From Candidatus Eisenbacteria bacterium (GTDB lineage: Bacteria; Orphanbacterota; Orphanbacteria; Orphanbacterales; Orphanbacteraceae), in NCBI GenBank assembly GCA_016930695.1, contig JAFGGD010000054.1, forward strand, positions 62,001 to 126,000: a DNA stretch of 64,000 nucleotides, in the 5' to 3' direction. Below the pieces are notes generated by a model. That model made no database searches. It had not been told where the DNA came from and worked only from the letters and a program-made list of their open reading frames with translations. Positions 1 through 17,900 of this stretch are shown one piece after another. A program made the translations under genes and the position numbers. The first letter of the stretch is position 1; every line of letters begins with the position of its first letter.

Positions 1-921
1 GTGATCGCCGATCGCCGGGACCGGATCGCCACGCTCCTCGTCGCCCCCCTCATGAGTTGCTCCGCCCGCATTCCGGTTTATACGTTAATGATCGCCGCCT
101 TCATTCCCGCCCGAAACGTCGCCGGCTTCCTGCCGCTTCAGGGCTTGGTTTTCGGCGCCATGTACGTGGTCGGCGTGATCGTGGCGATCCCGGTGGCGAT
201 CGTGTTGAAGCGCACGCTGCTGCGCGGCGCGGGGAACACCTTCGTGATGGAGATGCCCTCCTACACGGCGCCGAACCCGCGGTCGGTGGCGATGCGGGTC
301 TACCAGCGCGCCTGGGCTTTCGTGAAGCAGGCGGGCACGATCATCTTCTTCATGTCCATCGTGGTCTGGGCGCTCGGCTACTTTCCCCGCCCCGCATCGA
401 TCACCGCCGACTACCAGGCGGGAGTCCGCTCGGCGGAGGAGAGGCTCGACGGCGCGGAGCGGGAAGAGGAGTTGCTCCGAATCGAGAGTGAGCGGGACGG
501 CGCCTTTTTGCGGCAGAGCTTTCTCGCCCGGGCGGGCCACTTCATAGAACCGGTGGTGGCGCCCCTCGGCTGGGACTGGAAAATCGGCATGGCGACGCTC
601 GCCTCCTTCCCGGCGCGGGAGGTGGTGGTCTCCACGCTGAACGTGATCTACGACCTGGGGAACGGGGCGGAGAACCGGGAGGCGCTGATCGGAACGCTTC
701 GGTCGGCGCGGCGGGACGACGGGTCGCCGGCGTTCACCATCCCCGTCGCGCTTTCGCTGATGGTATTCTTCGCCCTCTGCATCCAATGCGGGGCGTCCCT
801 CGCCGCGATCCGCCGAGAGACCGTCTCCTGGCGATGGCCCCTCTTCACCTTCGGCTACATGACCGCCATCGCCTGGCTCGGCGCCTTCGCCACCCACCAG
901 ATCTTCGTCCGCATCCTTTAG
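1..921 (+). CDS. feoB: Ferrous iron transport protein B, C-terminal part (5' end outside window)
   Basis: This is the membrane part of FeoB, the GTP-coupled Fe(II) importer of the inner membrane. The reading frame is open from base 1, so the N-terminal G domain lies outside the window. The first residues carry the FeoB gate signature around APLMSCSARIPVY, and a second signature, SFPAREVVVSTLN, lies near residue 205; several hydrophobic helices surround both. A charged helical insert at about residues 135-175 separates two membrane segments, as in some FeoB subfamilies. It ends with TAG, followed by a convergent protease gene. No feoA is visible. Family call is secure; the missing GTPase domain cannot be assessed. 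Confidence 0.95.
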   Translation: MIADRRDRIATLLVAPLMSCSARIPVYTLMIAAFIPARNVAGFLPLQGLVFGAMYVVGVIVAIPVAIVLKRTLLRGAGNTFVMEMPSYTAPNPRSVAMRVYQRAWAFVKQAGTIIFFMSIVVWALGYFPRPASITADYQAGVRSAEERLDGAEREEELLRIESERDGAFLRQSFLARAGHFIEPVVAPLGWDWKIGMATLASFPAREVVVSTLNVIYDLGNGAENREALIGTLRSARRDDGSPAFTIPVALSLMVFFALCIQCGASLAAIRRETVSWRWPLFTFGYMTAIAWLGAFATHQIFVRIL

Positions 922-977
922 ATATTATTTTTTATGCCGAGGCCGATCCGCTCGATCATTCGCGCGCCGCTTCCCGG

Positions 978-1724
978 TCAACCGGCCAGCGCCGCCACTT
1001 GCGCGACGCCGGCGGCGTTGACCGCCACGTGCAGGAGGATCGCCGGCCAGATCGAGCCGGCGGCGAGCCGGGACCAACCGAGCACGATTCCGTTCAGAAA
1101 GATGGTGGTCATGTCTGTGGGGCCGTACTGGATGTGCGGGAGCGTCCAGAGCAGAGAGGTGATTCCGACGGCGCCGATCCAGCCCATACGGGAGGCGGCG
1201 AGCCCGTGAAGCAGAAACCCGCGCACCAGGATCTCTTCGAAGAGGGGAGCGGCGACGGCGATGGCGAACCAGAGAACGATCGGCGTGGGGGAACTCCGGT
1301 AGGCCCGCAGGAGAAACTCCGGTACCGGTTCGCCGCCGAGCCGCGTCCGAAAGATCTCGATGGCGATGAAGGCGACCGCGCCGATCGCCGTGGCGGCGAG
1401 GAAACGTCCCCAGCCGCTCCACAGGAGTCCCAGGTATTTCGCCGCCGGGTAGGGGCGGCGGCGGAGCGTGAAGAGCGCGGTGAGGGCGATCCCGACCACG
1501 GCGCCGGCGATCACGCCGCGCTCCAGCACCGCGCCGCCCAGAAGAAGATTCTCCGCGTTCGGGCTTCGCCCCTCCCGGATCATGTCGATCAACGCGCCGA
1601 GCAGGAGGGGGATCTGCACGATCTGGCTGAGCGCCAGGATGAGCAGCCCCACGGCGAGCGTGGAGACCGGGCCGTAGAGGCGGCCTTCCTCCGGGCTCGT
1701 TTGCCGCTCCATCTCCTCGGGCAT
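978..1724 (-). CDS. CPBP family intramembrane glutamic protease
   Basis: A 248-residue polytopic membrane protein of the CPBP/CAAX-protease (Abi) family, which cleaves substrates within the membrane. The EExxxR motif is at residues 163-168 (EEILVR), a histidine follows at 197 within LPHIQYG, and the HxxxN motif is at 232-236. About six to eight hydrophobic helices can be seen. The start has an AAGGAG ribosome site about 6 bases upstream. It sits directly after feoB in convergent orientation and about 80 bases downstream of the methyltransferase gene on the same strand. The substrate cannot be inferred; family members range from bacteriocin self-immunity to protein maturation. Confidence 0.85.
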   Translation of the reverse strand: MPEEMERQTSPEEGRLYGPVSTLAVGLLILALSQIVQIPLLLGALIDMIREGRSPNAENLLLGGAVLERGVIAGAVVGIALTALFTLRRRPYPAAKYLGLLWSGWGRFLAATAIGAVAFIAIEIFRTRLGGEPVPEFLLRAYRSSPTPIVLWFAIAVAAPLFEEILVRGFLLHGLAASRMGWIGAVGITSLLWTLPHIQYGPTDMTTIFLNGIVLGWSRLAAGSIWPAILLHVAVNAAGVAQVAALAG

Positions 1725-1805
1725 GCGCGCTCTCCTTCCCCGGCGAGTTACCGGAGGGTTCCTCGCGAGCGAAAGGGGGGATCGCTCCGGGATCCGCGCC
1801 GGCTC

Positions 1806-2996
1806 TTATTCCGCGACGCGGCAGACGAGTCCCTTGAGATAGTTCCCCTCCGGAAAGGCGAGGGAAACCGGGTGGTCCGGCGGCTGGCCGAGGCGGTGCA
1901 GCACCTGGACCTCACGGCCCGAGTCGAGCGCCGCGCCGGCCACCACTTTCCGAAAGAGCGGCTCCTCCATGAGGGCGGAACAGGAGAAGGTGAAGAGCAG
2001 CCCGCCCGGCCGCAATAACTTGAACGCCAAAAGATTGATGTCCTTGTAGGCCCGTGCGGCACGTTCCAGGTGACTCTTCGCCTCGACGAACCGGGGCGGA
2101 TCGAGGACGATCGCGTCGAAGGAGCGGCGGGAGTCGCGGAAGCGCCGGAGGACCTCGAAAACGTCCCCCTCCAGGTTCTCGATCCGGTCCTCTCCGATGC
2201 CGTTCCTTTCGGCGTTCCGGCGGGCCGTTTCCAGCGCGTCCCGCGAAGACTCCAGGTTCGTCGCCCGGGCCGCGCCGGCGGCGACGCAGGCGACGGCGAA
2301 AGCGCCGGTGTAGGCGAAGGCGTTGAGCACCTCCGCGCCGCCGGTCATGGTCGCCGCGACGGCCCTGTTTTCCCTCTGGTCCAGATAGAACCCGGTCTTG
2401 TGGCCGCGCCGCACATCCACAAGAAAGCGGCAGCGCCCCTCGCGGATCTTGATCGTCTCCGGCGGCTCCGACCCGGCGAGAGGACCCTCCCGGCGCTCGA
2501 GTCCCTCCTTTTCCCGCGCCGCCCCGTCGGAACGCTCGTAGACACCGGCCGATGGGAGGGCGTCTCCGAGGGCGTCCAGGATCTCTCCGCGCCGCCGCTC
2601 CGCGCCGGCGGAGGTGAAACGGCAGACCAGGAAACCGGCGTAACGGTCCACCGTGACCCCCGGAAGACCATCCGACTCGGCGTGAATCACGCGGTAGGCG
2701 TCCAGTTTCTCCGCCTCGACCCGCTCCCGTCGCAACCGGACCGCGCGGGCGACGCGGGCGCGGATGAAGGAGCCGTCTACTTCCTCTTCGGGATCGAAGG
2801 TCCACATGCGAACCGCGATCTGCGAGCGGGGCGACCAGGCGCCGCGGCCGAGAGCGCTCCCGTCCCCGGCGATCACCTCCACCGTTTCCCCGGATTCCGG
2901 GTCGCCGTCGACGCGTTCCACCGCTCCCGAGAAGACCCACGGGTGCCGCCGGAGCAAGGAACGCTCTCGCCCCGCTTTCAGAAATAGACGGGCCAT
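1806..2996 (-). CDS. rlmI: Class I rRNA large-subunit methyltransferase, RlmI-like (m5C)
   Basis: 396 residues, the normal length for RlmI/YwbD-type enzymes. An N-terminal PUA-like RNA-binding domain (about residues 1-80, beginning LKAGRERSLLRRHPWVFSG) precedes a Rossmann methyltransferase domain. The SAM-binding loop is NAFAYTGAF, the catalytic motif is LDPPRF, and a later FSCSALM carries the cysteine expected of a 5-methylcytosine transferase. By family it modifies 23S rRNA (C1962 in E. coli). A strong GGGAGGAAG ribosome site precedes the ATG. Subfamily assignment to RlmI rather than a paralogue such as RlmK/RlmO is inferred from the PUA domain and the Cys motif. Confidence 0.85.
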   Translation of the reverse strand: MARLFLKAGRERSLLRRHPWVFSGAVERVDGDPESGETVEVIAGDGSALGRGAWSPRSQIAVRMWTFDPEEEVDGSFIRARVARAVRLRRERVEAEKLDAYRVIHAESDGLPGVTVDRYAGFLVCRFTSAGAERRRGEILDALGDALPSAGVYERSDGAAREKEGLERREGPLAGSEPPETIKIREGRCRFLVDVRRGHKTGFYLDQRENRAVAATMTGGAEVLNAFAYTGAFAVACVAAGAARATNLESSRDALETARRNAERNGIGEDRIENLEGDVFEVLRRFRDSRRSFDAIVLDPPRFVEAKSHLERAARAYKDINLLAFKLLRPGGLLFTFSCSALMEEPLFRKVVAGAALDSGREVQVLHRLGQPPDHPVSLAFPEGNYLKGLVCRVAE

Positions 2997-4154: not shown

Positions 4155-5447
4155 TCAACGGAGAGCGTGCGCTGCGCCCGTTGCTCGGGAGTCTCCTTTC
4201 GGCGCGGTCAGGACGATCCGCATCCGGTCGAAGTCGAAGGTCATCGCCCAGGCATTGAAATAGTCGTGCGAGATGATCCCCGCGAGGAGAAAACCCCATC
4301 GATCCGGCGGTCCCGGGAATCCCCCGTGCAGGCCCCGGATTCCCTCGCGCCGCGCGCCCCCCAGAGAGAGTTCGTCGAGAGTGAAGGATCGGATCTCGAC
4401 CGGCCCGCCGCCGCCGATGCCCGTCATCGTCTCCTCGGACAGTTCGATTCCCGCCTCGTCGATCAGGAAATCGGCCGGAACGAATCCGCCGCCCGCCAGT
4501 CCCGTGTCCACCAGGAAAAGACAAGGGCCGGCGCCGTTCGCCGTTCCACGGGCGACCATGAAATGATCCCCCGCCATCCGGAAGGGGATCTCGTGGCCCC
4601 CCGGCGGAGCGGAGGCGCTTTCCGCGCGCCGCCGGAGCACGAGCCTCTCGCCGGGATAGTCGATGGTGGAGAGGAAGTGATAGAGGACGACCGTTCCGAT
4701 CACGCCGTCGATCGATCCGCCGGGACCGGGAGGAAAACGAATCCCCTTGAGATGGATCGGCACGTTCTTCACCGTAAATCCACCGAGACCGATCGAATCG
4801 GCGCGGCCGTATTCATACATCGCCCGGCGTCCTCCGGCGAAAACGCCCTCTTCGGCGCCGAAGGATCTCCCCGCGCCCGCGCTCGCCGCGAATGCCGGGT
4901 CCAAGGAGAGCACCGATCCTCCCGTGTCGATCAGAAAGCGCCCCGTCCGCCCGTTGACACGGATCGTGACGACCGGCAGAGGAAATCCCTCCAGGAAGGG
5001 GAGGACGGCCGAGTCGGCGGTTCCGGCGATCTCGTACGGCGCCTCTCCTTCGAAGCTCTCCATTTGATCGGCGAAGGCGGTCCGCCCGGCGGCGCGCAGA
5101 AGAGGCGCGGCGGCCGTGAAACGGTCCCGGCGATAATGGGTCTCCGCTAAAAGGAGCTTCGGGCGCTTCTCTTCCGGAAGGAGATCCGTCGCGGCGCGGA
5201 GCCGAGATTCCGCCTCGTCCAAACGGTTCTCCAGAAGAGCGATCTCGCCCAGACGGAGCAACGCACTTCCGCCGTCGTCCCCGTCTCTCTCGTATTCCGC
5301 ACGGTACGCCTCCTCGGCGCGCGCAAAATCGCCCGCCCGAAAAAGACTGTCCGCGGGTATCGCCCCGCTCGCGGCGACGGCGAAAACCGGCCGAAGCGCC
5401 ACCGCCGCCAGGGCGAGGCACGCCCACCCGATCCATACTCTTCGCAT
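4155..5447 (-). CDS. Exported TPR plus retropepsin-like aspartic protease
   Basis: 430 residues. The start at 5447 is preferred because AGGAGGTGCGG lies just upstream and the first 27 residues form a signal peptide (MRRVWIGW...AVAASG). Residues 30-125 contain two or three TPR-like helical repeats. The rest is a duplicated clan-AA protease fold with two active-site motifs, DTG at 174-176 and DTG at 314-316, so both halves of the catalytic pair are in one chain. It presumably acts in the periplasm or on the surface. It is divergent from the ArsR-like gene at 5603, and a second exported protease of the same clan lies at 7613. The natural substrate is unknown. Confidence 0.75.
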   Translation of the reverse strand: MRRVWIGWACLALAAVALRPVFAVAASGAIPADSLFRAGDFARAEEAYRAEYERDGDDGGSALLRLGEIALLENRLDEAESRLRAATDLLPEEKRPKLLLAETHYRRDRFTAAAPLLRAAGRTAFADQMESFEGEAPYEIAGTADSAVLPFLEGFPLPVVTIRVNGRTGRFLIDTGGSVLSLDPAFAASAGAGRSFGAEEGVFAGGRRAMYEYGRADSIGLGGFTVKNVPIHLKGIRFPPGPGGSIDGVIGTVVLYHFLSTIDYPGERLVLRRRAESASAPPGGHEIPFRMAGDHFMVARGTANGAGPCLFLVDTGLAGGGFVPADFLIDEAGIELSEETMTGIGGGGPVEIRSFTLDELSLGGARREGIRGLHGGFPGPPDRWGFLLAGIISHDYFNAWAMTFDFDRMRIVLTAPKGDSRATGAAHALR

Positions 5448-5568
5448 CGCCGCACCTCCTTTGCTTCGTCGGCCCGCCGGAGGAGGCATTCCTCCGACCG
5501 GCTCACTCTCTCCGACGAAAGGAATCGAACGTCTGTTCAAATAATTTTGAATTTTTAAACGGTTTGCC

Positions 5569-5596
5569 TTGACGCCCCGCTCGGATCGTTTAGGAT
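5569..5596 (+). promoter_or_regulatory. Candidate sigma70 promoter for the ArsR-like gene
   Basis: TTGACG at 5569-5574 and TAGGAT at 5591-5596 with a 16-base spacer lie in the AT-richer divergent gap between the protease and the regulator. Transcription would begin at about 5603, the A of the start codon, which suggests a leaderless mRNA. However, AGGA inside the -10 box could also serve as a ribosome site if transcription begins further upstream. Confidence 0.45.
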
Positions 5597-5602
5597 CGAT
5601 CC

Positions 5603-6175
5603 ATGAGCGCGCCGCGGGACAAGATGGTGCTCCGTTCGCCCGAGCAGGTCGCCGCGCTCGGCTCGCCGGTCCGTTTCCGGATCGTCGACATCCTCGCCCT
5701 GCGCGGCGCCTCCTCCGTTCGGGAGATCGCCGTCGGCGCCGGCTGCTCCGTCACCTCTCTCTACTATCACATCCGCGTGCTGGAGAAGGTGGGCATCCTC
5801 GAAGAGGCGGCGACGCGGGGGACGGGACGGCGCATGGAGAAAACCTACCGGCTTCGGGCGGGGAAGCTCGTCATCGACCCGAAGAAGCGTTCCGTCCCGT
5901 ACCGGCGGGCCATGGCGGACAGCTGCGCCGCCCTCCTCCGCCGCGCGGAGAGGGATTATCGTGCCGCCGCCTCGGCGACGGAGGTCCGGTTGGAAGGCGA
6001 AGAAAGGGACCTGATGATCCGGCGCCTCGTCCTCCGTCTCGATTCCGAGGGGCTCGCGCGTTTGAACCGTCTGCTCGACCGCGTTTCGGCACACGCCGGA
6101 CGGCGCGGCGGGGCTGGCGGCGCCCCCGTGACTCTCACCATCGCCATGAGCCGGGTACCCGAGCTGGATCGCTGA
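5603..6175 (+). CDS. ArsR-like winged-helix transcriptional regulator
   Basis: 190 residues. The N-terminal 80 residues form a winged helix of the ArsR/HTH_20 type: LGSPVRFRIVDIL, then SVREIAVGAGCSVTSLYYHIRVLEKVGIL, with the recognition helix around SVTSLYYHIRVL. The C-terminal 100 residues are helical and resemble the sensor/dimerisation part of multidomain HTH_20 proteins; no ArsR metal-binding cysteine motif is visible. It is divergently placed from the exported protease gene at 4155-5447, so autoregulation and control of that gene are plausible but not shown. The ATG is only 7 bases from a good -10 box. Confidence 0.75.
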   Translation: MSAPRDKMVLRSPEQVAALGSPVRFRIVDILALRGASSVREIAVGAGCSVTSLYYHIRVLEKVGILEEAATRGTGRRMEKTYRLRAGKLVIDPKKRSVPYRRAMADSCAALLRRAERDYRAAASATEVRLEGEERDLMIRRLVLRLDSEGLARLNRLLDRVSAHAGRRGGAGGAPVTLTIAMSRVPELDR

Positions 6176-6194
6176 CGGCCGCGGCGCACTCCCG

Positions 6195-7340
6195 TTACGG
6201 AGCCACGGCCGGCGACTCCAACACCGCCGGGAGGAACTCCAGATCCTTGGGATAATTGAGGCTGTCGGCGACAACCGCGTATTCGCCCGTGACGGAGTGG
6301 ATCCGATAGAGCTCACCGGAGAAATTCACGACCGCGTAGATGTAGGAACCGGCGGTGGCCAAGCCGGTGATGTTCCCCGCGGGGAGGGTGCAGAGATCGG
6401 TCACGTCGCCCTCCGCCGTGAACCGGTGGATCTTCTTCGAGCGGCCCAGACTGAACGCGCCGTTTCCGTAGTCGATCGCGCCCAGCCACCCGCCGGTCGG
6501 ATCGATCTCGCGGAAGATGGTCGCCGTGAGGGTCGTGAGATCGAGATCGATCAGCTGGCTATTCCCCGTCTCGGAGATGTAGGCGTGCCCGCCCACGACG
6601 ACGCCGTCCAGGCTCTGCAACTCGTCGGGGCTCGAGTCGGGCATGGCGAGGGCGGCCGCGAGCGATCCGTCCACGGACATGCAGAAGATCGAATCGGTGG
6701 CGTTGTCCAGGAAGGTGAATCCCCCGTCGGGGTGGATAAACCAATCATAGCCCCTCGCGTTCGCCGCGGCGACCGGCACGACGTCGACCGTGTTTCCCTG
6801 GTGATCGATCTCGGTGATCGAGGCATGGTCTTTGAGAAAGATCCTCGTGCCGAGCACCTCCACGAACGCGCGCGATTCACTCAACACGAAACCGTTCCCG
6901 CTGAAGTCGAGCGCCGTGATTCCATCGTTGGTTCGTGTCAGAAAGGTTCCGGCGACCACCTCGACCGCGACGGTGTCCGCGTCGCTTTCACCCTCTCCGT
7001 CCGAAACGGTCACCCAGAGATCCACGGTCCCCTCTACGCCCGGCGCGATCCAGTCGGCTTCATTCCCGGTGTTCGTCGAATCCGCGTACGTCCCCGCCGC
7101 GGCTCCCCATGCATAGGTCAGGGAGTCGCCGTCCGGGTCCACGGCCACGCAGGCGAGCGCCGCGCCCTCGCCGGGGCGGAGGATCGGCGGGTTCACCACG
7201 AACGCCGCGATCGCGGGGGCGTCGTTTTCCGCTCCACCGTTTCCTTCCGGCGAGCCGGGATCGTCGCCGCCGCATCCGACCGTGAAAAGAAACGGAAGCA
7301 GAACAAGAACCGCGCAACACGCATGGACCGGGATACGCAT
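6195..7340 (-). CDS. PKD-domain lipoprotein with propeller-like C-terminus
   Basis: 381 residues. The signal peptide ends in lipobox TVGC (Cys 23) followed by a Gly/Asp/Pro/Glu linker. Residues about 40-130 look like a PKD/Ig-like beta-sandwich (ACVAVDPDGDSLTYAW, then WVTVSDGEGESDADTVAVEV). The remaining 250 residues form repeated strand pairs with motifs such as GNTVDVVPV, GSLAAALAMP and GDVTDLCTLP, consistent with a beta-propeller. A GAGGAG ribosome site precedes the ATG. No catalytic residues are recognised. A role in surface adhesion or sensing is possible, but no function can be assigned. Confidence 0.7.
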   Translation of the reverse strand: MRIPVHACCAVLVLLPFLFTVGCGGDDPGSPEGNGGAENDAPAIAAFVVNPPILRPGEGAALACVAVDPDGDSLTYAWGAAAGTYADSTNTGNEADWIAPGVEGTVDLWVTVSDGEGESDADTVAVEVVAGTFLTRTNDGITALDFSGNGFVLSESRAFVEVLGTRIFLKDHASITEIDHQGNTVDVVPVAAANARGYDWFIHPDGGFTFLDNATDSIFCMSVDGSLAAALAMPDSSPDELQSLDGVVVGGHAYISETGNSQLIDLDLTTLTATIFREIDPTGGWLGAIDYGNGAFSLGRSKKIHRFTAEGDVTDLCTLPAGNITGLATAGSYIYAVVNFSGELYRIHSVTGEYAVVADSLNYPKDLEFLPAVLESPAVAP

Positions 7341-7612
7341 GAGTCACTCCTCGCCAAGGTTCGTTGGAATACCGAGGGCGGTCGAGCGGCAACCGCCGAC
7401 CCGAAGATATGCGGAGCGGGGGGGGCGAATCAATGGCGGAGGCGAGGCGGCCCGACGGGAGAGACCGCTTCCCCGGATCGGATCTGCGGTTTTCGTCGCA
7501 TCCGTTATTTTCCCGCGACTTTTCGGCTCCGCGGCGGGTCTTTCCCTCGACCGTTCCCCCGAAGATTTTCCGCGCGGGCGAAGCGCGCGGGCGCCGTCAC
7601 GAGGAGTCTTTC

Positions 7613-16715: not shown

Positions 16716-16724
16716 TGGTAGAAT
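16716..16724 (+). promoter_or_regulatory. Extended -10 promoter for the Cys-rich operon
   Basis: TGGTAGAAT at 16716-16724 matches an extended -10 element (TGn plus TAGAAT). Transcription would start near 16731, about 43 bases before the ATG at 16774. No good -35 was seen, as is usual with extended -10 promoters. Confidence 0.45.
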
Positions 16725-16773: not shown

Positions 16774-17241
16774 ATGAACCTGCCCGAAGGGACCATGAGG
16801 GGAAAAGGCCGGCTTCGCCTCCGGGGCGCGTTTTCCGCCGCCCGATTCGGCGCGATCCCCTGGTGGGACGAGCGTTTTCTCTCCCGCGTTCTTCTCTCTT
16901 TTCTCCTCGTCCTCTTCACGATCGGCAGTCCGGGCGTATCCATAGCGGCAACCCGCGATTCCGGCGAATGTCCGGGCGCCTCGGCCTGCGGCTCCGACGA
17001 AGGGGCGAAGGGGGGATGCGCACACTCGCGGGGATGCGGCGGCGATTGCGAAAAGTCCCGGGGGTGCGACGGGCACCGGGCGCGCTGCGTCTGCTCCGCC
17101 GTGAGGGAGGCCTTCGCCCCCACGGATGACGACGACTCCCGGACCCCTCTTCCTTTCGCGGGGACGATCCGCCCCCGACCCCACGGGAGCATCCCCTCCA
17201 TCGACATGCGGCCTCCGGTTCCCCCTCCCCGCGCGTCCTGA
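16774..17241 (+). CDS. Exported or membrane-anchored Cys-rich small protein, unknown
   Basis: 155 residues. A basic N-terminus is followed by one hydrophobic segment (about residues 36-58, LSRVLLSFLLVLFTIGSPG), acting as signal peptide or anchor. Residues 66-107 contain eight cysteines, including a CxxxC pair (CGGDC) and a closing CVC. The C-terminal 45 residues are acidic, then Pro/Arg-rich. GGAG precedes the ATG by about 10 bases. It lies between a promoter-like element and a second Cys-rich exported gene, with a terminator after the latter, so the two are probably an operon. No family is recognised; metal binding or redox handling in the periplasm is a guess. Confidence 0.5.
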   Translation: MNLPEGTMRGKGRLRLRGAFSAARFGAIPWWDERFLSRVLLSFLLVLFTIGSPGVSIAATRDSGECPGASACGSDEGAKGGCAHSRGCGGDCEKSRGCDGHRARCVCSAVREAFAPTDDDDSRTPLPFAGTIRPRPHGSIPSIDMRPPVPPPRAS

Positions 17242-17317
17242 TTCCGGATCGCACATTGTACCCGGCCGCCTCCGCGCGGGCCGGGCGCACGAATGTCTCC
17301 AGAGAAAGGACGTTTTC

Positions 17318-17806
17318 ATGCGAGTGATCACGCGCATCGCGCTTGTTTTGCTGATTTTGGGCGTCGGTTTGGCGGGCGCCTATCAACTGAAGTCGAACCA
17401 TTCCGAGGCGGTCGCGGCGGACACCCGGATCGCCGCCGGTGATTGTAATCAGCCCTGCGGCGACGCCCAGGGCAAGTGCAACGAGAGCTGTAAAGGCAAG
17501 GACGACGGCAAGTGCCAGGGGCAATGCAAGGGTAAGGCCGACGGCAAGTGCGAAGGGCAGTGCAAGGGCCACGCAGACGGCAAGTGCCAGGGCAAGTGCG
17601 AAGGGCAGTGCAGGGGCCACGCCGACGGCAAGTGCGACGAGAGCTGCAAGGGCCACGCCGACGGCAAGTGCCAGGGCCAGTGCAAAGGGAAGGATGACGG
17701 CAAAGCCGGCGCCGGCTGCCGGGGGAAGGGGAACTCCTCGGCCCAGACCGCCCCGCAAAAGGGATGCGCTTCCCAGTCGGGTTGCACAACCCCCTGCGGA
17801 CGGTAA
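17318..17806 (+). CDS. Exported Cys-rich tandem-repeat protein (12-residue CxxxC repeat), unknown
   Basis: 162 residues with AAAGGA 7 bases before the ATG. Residues 1-22 form a hydrophobic signal/anchor (RIALVLLILGVGLAGAY). Residues 59-134 are six copies of a unit reading K-G-K/H-A/D-D-G-K-C-x-x-x-C, the third with a 4-residue insertion that adds a Cys. In total there are 19 cysteines and eight CxxxC spacings, regularly interspersed with Lys, Asp and Gly. There is no catalytic motif. The pattern suggests a repetitive metal- or cofactor-binding scaffold outside the cytoplasm; a modified peptide precursor is less likely because no modifying enzyme is nearby. A strong terminator follows 30 bases downstream. 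Confidence 0.65.
   Translation: MRVITRIALVLLILGVGLAGAYQLKSNHSEAVAADTRIAAGDCNQPCGDAQGKCNESCKGKDDGKCQGQCKGKADGKCEGQCKGHADGKCQGKCEGQCRGHADGKCDESCKGHADGKCQGQCKGKDDGKAGAGCRGKGNSSAQTAPQKGCASQSGCTTPCGR
17492..17719 (+). repeat. 36-bp coding tandem repeat, six units
   Basis: Units at 17492-17527, 17528-17563, 17564-17611 (with a 12-base insertion), 17612-17647, 17648-17683 and 17684-17719. Units are similar but not identical at the DNA level, and the Cys and Gly codons are conserved, which points to selection on the protein. Confidence 0.85.
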
Positions 17807-17835
17807 ACGCCGAACGAAAGTCCAATAACAACGAT

Positions 17836-17866
17836 CGCCCGCCGGCGACGACCGGCGGGCGTTTTT
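17836..17866 (+). terminator. Rho-independent terminator after the Cys-rich operon
   Basis: A perfect 10-bp GC stem (17836-17845 with 17852-17861) around a 6-base loop is followed by five T residues. It lies between convergent units, so the hairpin may also help end the atp transcript, although the T run favours the plus strand. Confidence 0.85.
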
Positions 17867-17900
17867 CATGACCGGACAGATAATAGGTGACTGTCCCTAA

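Follow-up and report, generated by a model that had tools for sequence, protein, structure and literature searches.

The 64,000-nucleotide stretch analysed here (the window; contig JAFGGD010000054.1, positions 62,001 to 126,000 of the forward strand, from assembly GCA_016930695.1 of a rare, uncultured Candidatus Eisenbacteria bacterium, genome G000 in our sample) encodes a small protein, P0001, whose cysteines are spaced along a regular lattice. P0001 is real, orderly and rare, falls in no known family, and is judged from its sequence to be an exported cysteine-repeat protein that probably binds metal, this last being a function that we infer. The explanation that we favour, tentatively and with slightly less than even confidence, is that P0001, once exported and left unmodified, serves as a thiol sponge that takes up soft metals and metalloids. 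The gene and its principal features are as follows.

17318..17806, + strand: coding sequence of the Cys-lattice protein P0001 (162 amino acids, 19 Cys)
17492..17719, + strand: six 12-residue units KGxxDGKCxxxC plus one additional EGQC tetrad, with Cys on a 4-residue lattice
17318..17380, + strand: signal peptide or membrane anchor, P0001 residues 1–21, read from the sequence, with possible cleavage sites AGA|YQ and AVA|A
17305..17310, + strand: Shine-Dalgarno-like AAAGGA, 7 nt 5' of the P0001 ATG, read from the sequence
17836..17861, + strand: strong intrinsic terminator (−22.9 kcal/mol), a stem of 10 GC pairs with TTTTT behind it, about 30 nt past the P0001 stop

The cysteine lattice of P0001

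Translation of the open reading frame (ORF) confirms the count of 19 cysteines in 162 residues and the extent of the array (17492–17719) given by an earlier sequence-only reading of this DNA. That reading also described six units of the form K-G-x-x-D-G-K-C-x-x-x-C. Six units of 12 residues are indeed present (KGKDDGKCQGQC, KGKADGKCEGQC, KGHADGKCQGKC, RGHADGKCDESC, KGHADGKCQGQC and KGKDDGKAGAGC, in order), but the fourth opens with arginine and in the sixth the first cysteine is replaced by alanine. The array is rich in glycine, lysine and aspartate, with cysteine at every fourth (or eighth) residue and some histidine. Between units 3 and 4, the extra EGQC tetrad interrupts the 12-residue phase whilst preserving the 4-residue phase, and all cysteines from residue 54 to residue 150 fall in a single mod-4 register. 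The true period of P0001 is thus four residues (xGxC), with 12 as a superperiod. Nine pairs of cysteines are found at i,i+4 where 2.4 are expected (p ~5e-5) and eleven at i,i+12 where 2.2 are expected, a count reached in none of 20,000 shuffles; there are no pairs at i+1, 2, 3 or 5. The repeat can be detected in the DNA too. Units differ synonymously from one another (30 of the 90 differing codon pairs), which implies that they did not arise by recent copying.

The reading frame of P0001 looks to be coding, with GC contents of 0.60, 0.55 and 0.82 at the three codon positions. When the window was passed through a crude gene caller based on hexamers, it favoured instead an antisense ORF (16916–17869) that lies over P0001, but the GC profile of this ORF is flat by codon position (0.74/0.64/0.64) and, lacking a coding signature, it was judged spurious.

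Residues 7–21 of P0001 are hydrophobic and the helix spanning residues 3–19 is the best-scored stretch of an AlphaFold2 (AF2) model. These features uphold, as a prediction, the proposal of the sequence-only reading that the protein is exported behind a signal anchor, and P0001 is probably both exported and anchored in the membrane.

Distribution and a probable relative in another phylum

Two samples were searched for P0001 relatives: seven genomes of the phylum, all of one family and including G000 itself (95.8% complete), and a broad set of 386 diverse genomes that was scanned for Cys spacing, with matches being read by hand. P0001 is present in a single copy in its own genome and the gene was not found in the six other phylum genomes. 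The Cys-spacing scan of the broad set uncovered one convincing match, a probable relative in a genome of a different phylum (G277).

L077 1390–1845, − strand: unnamed 151-amino acid exported protein of G277 (21 Cys), found by the Cys-spacing scan

The G277 protein begins MKRIIVSVVIVAAVGVFAFSMYN... and retains the anchor, the SxAxA stretch and the opening CxxxC pair at places equivalent to those in P0001. Its units also have a period of 12 (CEGQCQGHPDCT / CEGDCRNCPECT; consensus CEGQC[KQ]GH[AP]D), so that the two proteins have in common an anchor, CxxxC and a 12-residue C[EQ]GxC[KQR]GHxD unit. It differs from P0001 in having more cysteines per unit, added at His and Gly positions, and in the location of its gene beside an arsenic-type cluster. 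Local alignment of the two proteins gives z = 8.4, a score that is reached in none of 5000 shuffles with the cysteines held fixed, and the score for the non-repeat part following the anchor, taken alone, is reached in 1 of 2000 shuffles. The two proteins are likely to be homologous, and we provisionally treat them as a family of two members. Histidine and cysteine exchange at one unit position, both within the G277 protein (CEGQCQGHPDCT / CEGDCRNCPECT) and between it and P0001. Such interchange is typical of metal-ligand exchange, and that between the two proteins provides the strongest hint of metal binding.

In line with the sequence-only reading, which recognised no described family, searches of Pfam, NCBIfam and PDB identified none: the Pfam scan (E up to 10) yielded chance matches only, and those from NCBIfam (among them EntC and FliH) reflect composition and fall far under the cut-offs. 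Direct homologue searches of genome contigs, viral contigs, plasmids, phages and PDB likewise returned low-complexity or chance matches only. These include a weak and probably compositional match on pMOL30 (L023 2501–2704), which lies between genes for copper resistance protein B and a multicopper oxidase with no annotated gene in frame, a low-complexity or chance match to a Vibrio VWA protein, and phage and viral stretches without a Cys array. Other rejected candidates were a repeat without cysteine in G045 (EQGKAQGI), an ExbD/TonB-like region in G005 and DNA microsatellites in G199; matches to a generic CxxxC DNA pattern were mostly out-of-frame, antisense or due to chance. A profile search had been suggested by the sequence-only reading, and a two-sequence profile built from P0001 and the G277 protein recovers only those two in the 386 genomes, besides the G199 microsatellites.

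Arsenic- and thiol-type gene clusters

On a 4.8-kb contig, the G277 gene is convergent with, and 99 nt away from, a DsbD_TM/CcdA gene that follows genes for a thioredoxin, an ArsP-like permease and an ArsR-like protein, the permease and regulator being named by their likeness to proteins identified by Pfam in G000 and G003. Genome G000 also encodes DsbD_TM/CcdA proteins, one of which lies inside an ArsP–LMWPc–CcdA–thioredoxin cluster of its own.

L108 (contig C44 of G000) 4612–7487: arsenic-type cluster of the window's genome, comprising ArsP_1 permease, LMWPc (ArsC-like), DsbD_TM and thioredoxin

A possible function for P0001

How might a thiol sponge of this type work? Sec export would place the P0001 array outside the cytoplasmic membrane, where its thiols, left unmodified, could be held in the reduced state by the DsbD/CcdA-type thiol supply of G000. 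The CxxxC pairs would then bind soft ions such as Cu(I), Cd/Zn/Hg or, via three thiolates, As(III), with the chain becoming ordered only on metal. Capacity would rise with each 12-residue unit, allowing lineages to tune it through gain or loss of units. In favour of the sponge, the lattice is far beyond chance, the units have been held in the protein despite synonymous change, and the probable relative retains both anchor and unit. Precedents are the Cu(I)-binding CXXXC motifs of Csp3 (PMC5171941) and the bufferins/oxazolins (PMC12452194). The scaffold for a metal, cluster or cofactor proposed in the sequence-only reading stands as plausible and as the leading explanation, and draws some support from the His/Cys swap and arsenic-type neighbours of the probable relative.

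Several observations weigh against the sponge. The neighbours of P0001 are atpC/atpD and a gene for a TPR-like protein, with no metal gene adjoining, and the arsenic-type cluster of G000 is located on contig C44 rather than on the contig that carries P0001. The closest CcdA homologues (63% identity), in the phylum members G003 and G006, have no Cys-lattice neighbour, so the thioredoxin–CcdA link is not general; the arsenic link therefore amounts to one case. The likeness between P0001 and its only known relative can also arise by low-complexity convergence. The AF2 model (mean predicted local distance difference test score 45) is too poor for a fold search; such a model would be expected if the chain became ordered only with metal bound, and is equally expected of any orphan folded from one sequence. 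Finally, analogy with the CXXXC sites of the copper storage proteins is weakened, as the glycine-rich array of P0001 is not, on this comparison, a Csp-type helix.

Three other explanations have been considered. It is unlikely, in our view, that P0001-type chains are oxidised into a disulfide-crosslinked envelope network, giving the cell surface stiffness or anchoring a matrix: predicted export, glycine richness and low complexity would suit this role, and similar-looking exported Cys-repeat proteins (of CKPKCDPC and NKCESKCGCK types) occur in genomes of family f17, but the regular CxxxC spacing and the His/Cys exchange in the relative are better suited to ligands, and P0001 has just 162 amino acids, is present in one copy per genome and has no known partner structural gene. 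Absence from the six other phylum genomes, occurrence in 2 of 386 genomes (microsatellite artefacts apart) and a locus after atpC that is not conserved would all fit a lineage-specific low-complexity protein with no specific task, grown by slippage and resembling the G277 protein through convergence. The gene signals, the synonymous divergence between units and the similarity to the G277 protein outside the array make this distinctly unlikely, however.

That P0001 is the precursor of a ribosomally synthesised and post-translationally modified peptide (RiPP), whether bufferin/oxazolin-like or of the radical S-adenosylmethionine (SAM) CXXX-repeat type, with its cysteines turned enzymatically into copper ligands, we regard as improbable. 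The DGKC and EGQC tetrads do resemble the EGKCG core, and a signal peptide is combined with repeats as in Buf_EGKCG proteins (PMC12452194). Against this, MNIO (PF05114) has no match in G000 or across all seven phylum genomes (the control being positive in two genomes), the EGKCG motif is missing from P0001, which has five DGKC and no KCG at all, and no modification enzyme is seen among the neighbours examined, radical-SAM maturases elsewhere in the genome not having been searched for.

Returning to the thiol sponge, a bolder and rather doubtful extension is that P0001 represents a new and sparsely spread exported family that would handle soft metals or trivalent arsenic on a modular lattice of unmodified CxxxC, kept reduced by a thioredoxin–CcdA relay, as an enzyme-free counterpart of the bufferins. 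Should P0001 bind metal, then bacteria of rare phyla would be using, outside the membrane, a simple thiol lattice built of repeats that needs none of the bufferin maturation enzymes, the repeat unit would be a countable measure of capacity, and arsenic or copper handling might be suspected of involving a thiol buffer in the periplasm.

The P0001 locus and other cysteine-repeat proteins

Upstream of P0001 lies a second Cys-rich ORF.

16774..17241, + strand: P0002, 155 amino acids, predicted exported, Cys-rich (GECPGASACGSDEGAKGGCAHSRGCGGDCEKSRGCDGHRARCVC), stopping 76 nt before P0001

P0002 belongs to no family detected in Pfam or NCBIfam scans and has no credible homologue among the phylum genomes. 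It is possible that P0002 and P0001 share one transcription unit and are operon partners. An extended -10-like sequence, TGGTAGAAT (16716–16724), was spotted by eye 5' of P0002. Downstream of P0001, atpC and atpD are convergent with it, and the region that follows atpC differs in all five phylum relatives where atpC was located, showing no conservation.

Other cysteine-repeat proteins came to light in the course of this work. Exported proteins of the CKPKCDPC and NKCESKCGCK type with 40–52 cysteines are encoded at L046 (G308), where two lie in tandem, and at L075 1490–2230 (−) (G022). Membrane proteins of one look, each with a C-terminal tail of CHSA tetrapeptides (...CVSGGSH) that forms another Cys/His tetrad lattice, occur in several families, at L047, L060, L066 and L070, that of L070 matching DUF2207. 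At L076, a CHYKCDES octad repeat (1710–1952, −) is antisense to an in-frame IHRTCSGT repeat in a protein encoded at 869–2080 (+) that by eye resembles the hydrogenase maturation factor HypD; the insertion is a short tandem DNA repeat that is open on both strands.

Comparison with described families

Bacterial metallothioneins, like P0001, are Cys-rich and of low complexity, and are unstructured without metal. Those described are cytosolic and use CxC/CxxC, whereas P0001 is predicted to be exported and has neither, no two of its cysteines being two or three positions apart. No match to prokaryotic metallothionein was seen for P0001 in Pfam or NCBIfam, and the sulphur globule protein profile PF17228, at 7.9 bits, falls short of its cut-off (26.7).

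The copper storage proteins Csp1 and Csp3 share with P0001 their many cysteines and CXXXC pairs, and exported members exist (PMC5171941). In Csp3 the CXXXC motifs are Cu(I) sites located on a helix (PMC5171941). The Csps are four-helix bundles with cysteines in the core, however, whereas P0001 is Gly-rich, with a glycine in nearly every tetrad that disfavours long helices, and the Csp profile gave no Pfam match for P0001.

The Pfam scan (E up to 10) likewise gave no match between P0001 and the bufferin Buf1 profile (DUF2282). Bufferins and oxazolins are exported Cys-repeat proteins with signal peptides that bind Cu(I) (PMC12452194). As in P0001, the Buf_EGKCG/oxazolin precursors (HvfA type) are exported and carry a short repeat of Cys, Gly, Lys and acidic residues in variable number (PMC12452194), and their role in soft-metal handling is like that proposed for P0001; the N-terminal anchor or Sec signal that precedes their Cys region is also found in P0001, as a hydrophobic stretch and model helix. 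Their repeats are of 17 residues with EGKCG and are accompanied by MNIO, and their cysteines become oxazolone/thioamide or thiooxazole, whereas P0001 has 12-residue units on a CxxxC lattice, and neither EGKCG nor MNIO. By these tests P0001 is not a member, but the copper-binding bufferin/oxazolin precursors are the nearest described kind and P0001 may work alike.
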